Shown here: positions 23,151 through 25,495 of the stretch, in pieces
Layout: each line of letters opens with the position of its first letter
Position numbering within the stretch: the stretch's first letter is position 1
DNA from: Nitrospinota bacterium
GTDB lineage: Bacteria > UBA8248
Length of the DNA stretch: 25,495 nt
Direction: 5' to 3'
Assembly (NCBI GenBank): GCA_003506735.1
Contig: DNYS01000181.1
Location: 17,651-43,145, forward strand
Program-made: the position numbers and the translations under genes
The notes under the pieces: model-generated
The model's database searches: none
What the model was told of the DNA's origin: nothing
What the model saw: only the letters and a program-made list of their open reading frames with translations

Positions 23151-24224
23151 ATGCCCCATTTGTTCGATCCGCTCCAGCTCCGGGGGGTGACGCTCCGCAA
23201 CCGGATCGGGGTCTCCCCCATGTGTCAGTACATCGCGCAAGAGGGCATGGCCAACGGTTGGCATCTGGTTCACCTGGGCGCGCGCGCGGCCGGGGGCGCC
23301 GGCCGCGTCTTCATCGAGGCGACCGGGGTGACGGCCCAGGGGCGCATCACGCCGGGGTGCATGGGCATCTGGACGGACGATCATGTTGAGCCCCTGGCGC
23401 GGATCGCCCGCTTCGTCTCCGGGCAGGGCGCGGTGGCGGGCATCCAGATCGGCCATGCCGGCCGGAAGGCCAGCTGCGACGTCACCTGGAAGGGGGGCGT
23501 ACCTCTATCGAACGATGAGGGCGGATGGGAGATCGTGGCCCCCAGCCCGCTTCCGTTTCAGGACAAGTCGCGCCTGCCCAAGGAGCTGGGGCTGGAGGAT
23601 ATCGCCCGAATTCAGGAAGCCTTCCGCACGGCGGCCCGCCGGGCGCTCGCGGCCGGTTTTGAGTGGATCGAGGTCCACGCGGCCCACGGCTACCTGATGC
23701 ACAGCTTTTATTCGCCCATCTCGAATAAACGGACCGACAGGTACGGCGGCTCCTTCGAGAACCGCACCCGCTTCACGGTCGAGACCGTGCGGATCGTGCG
23801 GGCCGAATGGCCGGAGGACAAGCCCATGTCCGTCCGCCTCTCCTCGACCGACTGGGCCGAGGGGGGCTGGACCTTGGAGGAGACGGTCGCGCTGTCGAAA
23901 ATTCTCAAGGCCGAGGGTGTGGACCTCATCGATTGCAGCGGCGGCGGGGGGACCCCCCTGGCGAAGATTCCGGTGGGCGCGGGCTACCCGGTTCCCTTCA
24001 CCGAGGCCCTCCGCCGGGAGGCGGAGATTCCCACCGCGGCGGTCGGGATGATCACCGAGCCCTGGCAGGCCGATCAGATCGTGCGCAACGGGCAGGCGGA
24101 TATCGTATTGATGGCGCGGGCGATGCTCCGCGAGCCCTACTGGCCCCAGAAGGCCGCCGCCGCCCTCGCCAAGAAAGATCTCGCCTACGTCCCCGATCCC
24201 TACCACCGGGCGCACGGGCGCTAA
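23151..24224 (+). CDS. Old Yellow Enzyme family NADH:flavin oxidoreductase (YqjM-like)
   Basis: A 357-residue FMN-dependent ene-reductase that reduces activated C=C bonds with NAD(P)H. The sequence matches the YqjM/NamA branch: RIGVSPMCQY (active-site-modulating Cys25 and Tyr27), QIGHAGRKAS, HAAHGYLMHSFYSP and KRTDRYGGSFENRTRF. The C-terminal phosphate-binding part (GMITEPWQAD, ADIVLMARAML) is intact. It is soluble and cytoplasmic. ATG 23151 has AGGAG and GAGG upstream. It lies beyond the terminator, so it has its own promoter, possibly within or after the 20-bp repeats. Substrate is not predictable; the surrounding dehydrogenases suggest catabolism of unsaturated organic acids or xenobiotics. 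Confidence 0.93.
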   Translation: MPHLFDPLQLRGVTLRNRIGVSPMCQYIAQEGMANGWHLVHLGARAAGGAGRVFIEATGVTAQGRITPGCMGIWTDDHVEPLARIARFVSGQGAVAGIQIGHAGRKASCDVTWKGGVPLSNDEGGWEIVAPSPLPFQDKSRLPKELGLEDIARIQEAFRTAARRALAAGFEWIEVHAAHGYLMHSFYSPISNKRTDRYGGSFENRTRFTVETVRIVRAEWPEDKPMSVRLSSTDWAEGGWTLEETVALSKILKAEGVDLIDCSGGGGTPLAKIPVGAGYPVPFTEALRREAEIPTAAVGMITEPWQADQIVRNGQADIVLMARAMLREPYWPQKAAAALAKKDLAYVPDPYHRAHGR

Positions 24225-24382: not shown

Positions 24383-24547
24383 ATGCCTGTATACGATTTC
24401 AGATGCCTGAAATGCAAAAAGAAAGTGACCTTGACGATGCCCCTCGCCGAGTACGAGGGGAAAAAATTCAAGTGCCCCAAGTGCGGCGGAAAGCGCCTCG
24501 AGCGCCTCGTCGCCACGTTCCAGGCGGTGACCTCCCGGAAAAGCTGA
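24383..24547 (+). CDS. FmdB-like zinc-ribbon protein
   Basis: A 54-residue protein that starts MPVYDFRCLKCKKKVTLTMP, the usual FmdB opening (MPxYxxxCxxC). Two CxxC pairs, Cys8/Cys11 and Cys31/Cys34, form a zinc ribbon. FmdB-type proteins are regulators or adaptors of unknown partner. The end (RLERLVATFQAVTSRKS) is slightly shorter than many relatives but not truncated. ATG 24383 is clear, though its Shine-Dalgarno is weak. Upstream, ACACT (24302-24306) and AGTGT (24314-24318) form a small inverted repeat that might be a control site. The 145 bases after it, up to the convergent His-rich gene, hold no gene I can see. Confidence 0.85.
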   Translation: MPVYDFRCLKCKKKVTLTMPLAEYEGKKFKCPKCGGKRLERLVATFQAVTSRKS

Positions 24548-24692: not shown

Positions 24693-25495
24693 CTAATTCG
24701 CGGGCGCCCCGGTCATGCGCCTCATGCAGGCGCGCCGGGAGGCTTTCGGGCCGCGCGCGCAGATGCTTCGCGCCTGGCCCACCAATTTTCTCAGTTGCGC
24801 CCTTATATTTTTGATCCTTCCGCCAATTTGAGCGAGCTTCCTGGCGGCGGCCGTGTTCTTCGCAGCGGCGCGGGCCTTCGCAACTGCGCGGACCTTGGCG
24901 GCGCGGGGGTTGTTGAAGCGCCCGGCCCCGAACGCGCCGTGCGGGTGGTTCTTTATGTGCTTGTGGTTCTTGACCATCTTGCGGTAGGCCACGCGGGGGT
25001 GCTTGTGTTTCGTGTTGCGGTGCTTGTGTAGATAGGCATTGTGGGTAATGTACTTTATTGTCGGGATCTTCTTCCAGTGCTTGTGTAAATCGCGGTGTTT
25101 GTGGTTGAAGGCGGGTGTCGGCTTTACATATTTGGCGGTGTGAATGTGGAGTTTTTTATGACGGTGCAACCTTTTACACTTTCTCCTTCCACGGTAAATA
25201 TACCCATACCCTTGTTTGCAGTGTATCTTAGCACCAGGGTGTCGTACAAAGTGGAAGTGCCTCCCTCCTTCCGCCCCCCCCCCCGTGTGGCGCGATGCTT
25301 GTGAAAATCGTGCCAGTGATTGGTAGAAACCAATTTTAACCCGGCTACCTTTCTTTTAACGCTCGGGTGTCTGTGCTTCTTGCCGGGGTGGATGTGGATC
25401 TTGCCGGGGTTTACGACGATGGTTTTGTAGTGCTTGTGCATCGTGATGTGTTTATGGATCGCAATTTGCGCCCCGGGGCGGGTGGGCATGACGAA
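24693..25495 (-). CDS. Histidine/lysine-rich repetitive protein, broken at a G11 tract, 5' end at window edge
   Basis: Two minus-strand frames read as one protein of about 265 visible residues. The upstream part is open to the right edge; a possible ATG is 25489, but the frame has no stop before the edge. It is rich in HKH, HIH and HRH units (IHKHITMHKH, GKIHIHPGKKHRHP). At 25274-25284 an 11-base G run (minus strand) breaks the frame: as sequenced, it ends at 25124. The other frame continues HFHFVRHPGAKIHCKQGYGY, then FNHKHRDLHKHWKK and others, and ends at 24693 in an arginine/alanine-rich basic tail. I count eight HKH motifs. Base composition is clearly less GC-rich than the neighbours. I recognise no family. 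Metal or polyanion binding is inference. Confidence 0.6.

Follow-up and report, generated by a model that had tools for sequence, protein, structure and literature searches.

A histidine-rich repeat gene divided by an eleven-guanine tract beside an assembly gap in a Nitrospinota bacterium

Two His/Lys-rich stretches on the minus strand, running from the end of the window to position 24693 in different frames on either side of an eleven-guanine tract (G11), belong to a single gene. The window is the whole stretch of DNA analysed (25,495 nucleotides; G000:C198:17651-43145, where C198 is the contig), and the assembly comprised 3.8 Mb in 297 contigs with 84% completeness and 5.1% contamination. 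On the reading that we narrowly favour, the gene would encode a basic, exported HxH binder and has kept its coding constraint, and the tract is either mis-resolved or the snapshot of an unstable homopolymer, with no proof of a dedicated switch. A genetic switch at G11 is possible, though no more likely than an error in the tract. The features are listed in Table 1.

Table 1. Features of the histidine-rich gene and its left neighbours, in window coordinates.
Feature	Position	Strand	Basis
FMN oxidoreductase (PF00724), bordering the variable site on the left	23151..24224	+	Family match
Small zinc-ribbon protein (PF09723), between the oxidoreductase and the His-rich gene	24383..24547	+	Family match
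3' piece in the second frame, nine HxH at about 24939-25259	24693..25273	-	Open to the stop at 24693
C-terminal Ala/Arg/Lys-rich helices and C-x10-C helical turn (predicted)	24711..24908	-	Single-sequence AlphaFold2; paralogous fragment G000:C229
G11 tract (C11 on the + strand), meeting point of the two coding frames	25274..25284	-	Sequence; differs in the second assembly
5' piece, His/Lys-rich, six HxH at about 25295-25456	25285..25495	-	Frames, third-position G+C and shuffles; start and export-signal-like N-terminus from P0002

The frame read from position 25495 gives ...HDFHKHRATRGGG, continues into HxH-free sequence and stops at 25124, where the product is truncated as sequenced. The frame read from 25493 is HxH-rich through to its stop. 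Third-position G+C was 0.71 in the His-rich frame of the upstream piece, compared with 0.51 and 0.36 in the other frames, and 0.715 in that of the downstream piece, compared with 0.53 and 0.46, which supports the His-rich frame of each piece as coding. The upstream piece held 6 HxH motifs against a mean of 1.86 in residue shuffles (a count reached in 38 of 20,000), and the downstream piece held 9 against 2.16 (reached in 1 of 20,000). The initial annotation had claimed that the two flanking frames are parts of one gene, that the product truncates as sequenced and that the protein has a basic Arg/Ala-rich tail; all three claims stood, the first by the HxH excess and the third-position G+C on each side. 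The net charges were +13 for the upstream and +50 for the downstream piece. In the feature test, the homopolymer was found to interrupt a coding sequence, with one half of a single protein encoded on either side, and a 220-codon frame is open across the region 3' of G11. We infer that the gene is still under coding constraint. Twin spacing of the HxH motifs was also considered; in shuffles keeping the HxH blocks together, it was not significant upstream (3049 of 20,000) and merely suggestive downstream (696 of 20,000).

The 5' end of the gene lies outside the window, which stops at a run of 108 N (C198:43146-43253). The start was placed at about C198:43278, beyond this gap; a purine-rich ribosome-binding site and ATG AAA CGA TCG GTC CTT CTG TTC were found upstream of the gap. 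A public protein of 108 aa (P0002), derived from a 7825-base contig that is absent from this genome's assembly, spans the gap with its first residues (MKRSVLLFSLASLVFVMTQFVMPTRPGAQ / MKRSVLLFSLASLVFVMTQFVMPTRPGAQIAIHKH), and its N-terminus confirms the gene start. P0002 implies about 32 bases where 108 N are written (our own count, assuming equal length), and reading through the tract would give a whole product of about 285 residues (also our own count). In the feature test, the start of P0002 (MKRSVLLFSLASLVFVM) consisted of basic residues followed by a hydrophobic stretch, with a 15-residue hydropathy mean of up to 2.27. Judged from this composition, the N-terminal segment is a putative export signal, and the protein is probably exported or membrane-anchored.

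P0002 also provided a second view of the tract. It was identical to the 5' piece at 73 of 78 aligned positions, and up to the tract it matched the window residue for residue, bar one D/E difference. Past the tract, the rest of P0002 (GRREALPLCTTPWC) is read in the third frame, and the protein aligns to C198 in two frames. The tract therefore differs between the two assemblies, and in neither are the His-rich halves in one frame; such disagreement is expected of a variable tract and of poor assembly too. A comparison of tract length across strains had been proposed; it came to this one second copy, which differs at the tract, and both copies are frame-breaking. Slippage on the G run during transcription or translation, a process described along with frameshifting in reviews and studies, could yield some full-length protein from the out-of-frame gene. 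Nothing specific at this gene points to it, however, and one fixed shift would not serve both copies, because P0002 is in another frame past the tract; we regard slippage as highly improbable.

If phase variation were real, the G tract would undergo slipped-strand mispairing and so toggle a full-length exported protein, and both assemblies would represent off states. This explanation is consistent with the difference between the two assemblies, with the frame that is still open 3' of the tract, and with a coding-strand G run of a length that is mutable elsewhere. A study of the Campylobacter phasome (PMC6321876) attributes switching to poly-G tracts at least eight long; the genes described there and the present gene share a coding-strand G run of switch-prone length, and here the protein is probably exported and the length differs between two assemblies. 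The present case departs from the Campylobacter one in that neither an in-frame state nor a mixture of lengths within a population was seen, the lineage is unrelated and uncultured, and the run lies near an assembly gap. Further points against phase variation are that a search among proteins of about 145-462 aa returned no in-frame copy, the 158-aa downstream piece being the sole match, and that P0002 carries a Cys amid glycines at the tract, which implies that its run is interrupted (as read from the protein). Long G/C runs in the sample described below also track assembly gaps. We consider phase variation somewhat unlikely.

G11 lies 212 bases from the N gap. Runs were sampled over 373,653 known bases on 11 contigs, all taken from the genome's own tract list, and 7.3% of these bases are no more than 300 bases away from an N gap or contig end. 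The same zone contained 15 of the 22 G/C runs of at least 10, the window's run included, or 8 of 15 when clustered neighbouring runs, which are not independent, were counted once; the contigs had been chosen for their tracts. For shorter G/C runs, the counts near a gap or end were 5 of 12 (length 9) and 0 of 17 (length 8), and for A/T runs they were 4 of 28 (length 8), 1 of 7 (length 9), and 2 of 2 (longer). The whole genome contains 120 G/C runs of at least 9, compared with about 133 predicted from base composition (13.1 per 374 kb, scaled), so there is no surplus of runs of 9; the other four genomes of the genus, 2.4 to 4.1 Mb in size, contain 56, 82, 57, and 45. Runs of at least 11 numbered 18 in the sample against 1.3 expected, an excess inflated by the selection of all 11 contigs from the tract list. 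Very long G/C run clusters (up to G40) were noted at G000:C108:22533-22657, C203:58-171, and C172:13762-13813, each located at, or close to, an N gap or contig end.

As long G/C runs cluster at gaps and contig ends, the assembled length of G11 is weak evidence for switching, and with two out-of-frame assemblies, mis-resolution accounts for the same data as a switch. The initial annotation, supported in part as a whole, had proposed phase variation, with a sequencing error as the plain alternative. The tract difference between the assemblies is what a switch would predict, but both are out of frame and the runs cluster at gaps. This clustering lends weight to an error, though not to its simplest form. 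Two-colour Illumina chemistry can yield false poly-G, according to one report (PMC13218037). By eye, the orientation of the long runs followed no simple rule, and the window's run is wrongly oriented for reads pointing at the gap, and thus at odds with a simple dark-cycle artefact. Three further points speak against mis-resolution: a run of 11 bases is within short-read reach, and thus the assembled length may be right; the D/E difference hints that the second copy may come from a separate strain, which speaks for a genuine change of tract length; and few other long runs lie in a convincing coding frame (by eye), which makes the window's run less ordinary. Mis-resolution or instability is favoured by the frame signals on both sides, the open 3' frame, the departure of P0002 in the third frame, the runs near gaps, and the variable site.

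The gene was assigned to no known family: in scans of Pfam and NCBIfam, no match reached the curated cut-off, in agreement with the initial annotation, and the best matches among PDB sequences had E-values of 0.091 and 0.24. At E <= 0.001, the 60 other genomes searched (17 belonging to the same family) contained no relative, and none turned up in viral contigs or in genome_contigs (one genome per species for 84,980 species, from which the window's own genome or very close ones may be missing). Against 5.8 billion proteins, the 158-aa downstream piece matched only itself (P0001) at E <= 0.001 among candidates of about 87-276 aa; its last 105 residues within a 264-letter query retrieved P0001 alone at E <= 10, and the upstream piece retrieved P0002 alone at E <= 1 among proteins of about 67-212 aa. 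P0001 and P0002 belong to clusters of 10 and 6 sequences, respectively. Because these protein searches require 5-residue words in common, they could have missed distant relatives. Two other genomes were matched by the P0002 query at chance level (E 0.033 and 0.051), and the ten matches viewed at E <= 10 were chance-like except those of G009 and G013:C103. A literature search returned no paper title describing the protein; we do not claim its absence from print. The gene is thus a near-orphan, with one paralogous fragment in its own genome and its own two pieces in the protein database. A recently broken gene, with a frameshift fixed at the tract and the full-length protein no longer produced, would suit an orphan of patchy presence whose two known assemblies are both out of frame. 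However, the 191 codons past the tract are open and retain coding-type third-position G+C and an HxH excess, where decay would be expected over time, and we judge this explanation improbable.

The paralogous C-terminal fragment (C229, 59% identity) is cut by an N gap and a contig end. Over a 28-codon ungapped core, 16 codons were identical, 4 synonymous, and 8 non-synonymous, and the differences by codon position were 4, 3, and 8; a 46-codon comparison was left out, as the alignment there has a four-residue gap. The C-terminal region is predicted to be helical: single-sequence AlphaFold2 of the 158-aa piece gave a block mean pLDDT of 78-93 for residues 91-150, while the model was unreliable over the His part (mean pLDDT 64.9). 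The C-x10-C turn corresponds to Cys137 and Cys148 of this piece. A profile of the two C-termini retrieved a Cys-rich array protein in G009 (E 8.1e-4, for one genome of 61); an unrelated genome, G057 (0.031), ranked above G013 (0.042). The link to the Cys-rich proteins received a probability of 94.3% over 39 columns from hhalign, which is no independent test because the rows were picked after an earlier search had matched them. These Cys-rich repeat proteins (G009:C18 and G013:C103), from genus g6 within the same family, resemble the window protein in carrying a C-x10-C turn shortly before the stop but differ in being Cys/Pro-rich arrays without HxH repeats, and the link is weak. A C-terminal module common to the His-rich and Cys-rich proteins, short of family membership, is possible from these alignments. 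In genus g6, Cys-rich repeat arrays (L019:3-1157 and L034:1-345) are cut off at contig starts and lie beside a peptidase-like gene that we take to be M16.

The His-rich gene is flanked on one side by the oxidoreductase and the zinc-ribbon gene, presumably FmdB-like, and on the other by an alpha/beta hydrolase. The site is empty in the Nitrospinae MAG FO_M_Nitrospinota_01 (L104), where 35 bases separate the oxidoreductase from the hydrolase. The same space is occupied by an unrelated 214-aa frame in G004 and by other frames in a Tectomicrobia MAG (L106); in G001, the hydrolase is on another contig and the gene after the oxidoreductase encodes a different His-rich protein that looks exported. 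The site is therefore variable. Among the five genomes of the genus, the oxidoreductase was present in three (E <= 1e-80) and the hydrolase in all five (E <= 1e-40), and the closest named relatives of the oxidoreductase were those of FO_M_Nitrospinota_01 and bacterium ODZ_NOB7a (80% identity), which points to an uncultured, Nitrospinota-like organism. The G001 protein (L098:928-1452, 174 aa) is His/Lys-rich and unrelated, with all family matches below the cut-offs. Past the window end, a G16 run (C198:44587-44602) lies just 5' of the likely hydrolase start; across it, the divergent gene is presumably fatty-acid-desaturase-like.

Low G+C had been read as a sign of transfer, and this reading held in part. 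The lower G+C is real (0.565 for the gene, 0.644 for the window), and the insertion-like position fits, but about half of the deficit is due to amino-acid composition, from which values of 0.566 and 0.613 were expected for the two pieces (observed 0.524 and 0.568). Third-position G+C was 0.71, compared with 0.79-0.80 expected from the codon usage of the neighbours; the position of the gene below all 18 reference frames is biased, as these were selected with third-position G+C above 0.72. The insertion-like site and the residual deficit are weakly consistent with late acquisition.

On the favoured reading, that of a constrained gene with a mis-resolved or unstable tract, a minus-strand gene of about 285 codons would encode a strongly basic, exported or membrane-anchored protein with an N-terminal hydrophobic segment, about eight HxH-bearing stretches, an Ala/Arg-rich helical region, and a C-terminal C-x10-C turn. 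It would act outside the cytoplasm, where the HxH motifs may bind transition metals or the net positive charge may bind polyanions. The gene would be a lineage-specific insertion between two convergent genes retained in relatives, and G11 as assembled would be mis-resolved or an unstable homopolymer caught at one length. Helicobacter Hpn, spore-coat CotG, silaffins, and histidine-rich glycoprotein are histidine-rich metal- or polyanion-binding proteins. They share with the present protein a low-complexity, His/Lys-rich, basic composition with repeated HxH, but the searches above found no sequence relation to them, and binding is putative here.

Poly-G switching is best known in host-associated bacteria. 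That an uncultured Nitrospinota-like bacterium uses poly-G to switch a polycationic HxH-repeat protein that is exported and belongs to an undescribed family, and thereby controls metal capture or surface charge, seems to us unlikely. If there is no switch, the locus serves as a warning that a long G run in this assembly is often the sign of a poorly assembled region, and that anyone claiming a switch from one assembled genome should first look for gaps close by. If the tract varies within populations, poly-G switching would gain an example in an environmental lineage without cultured members, with an undescribed His-rich repeat protein, itself exported, as its target.
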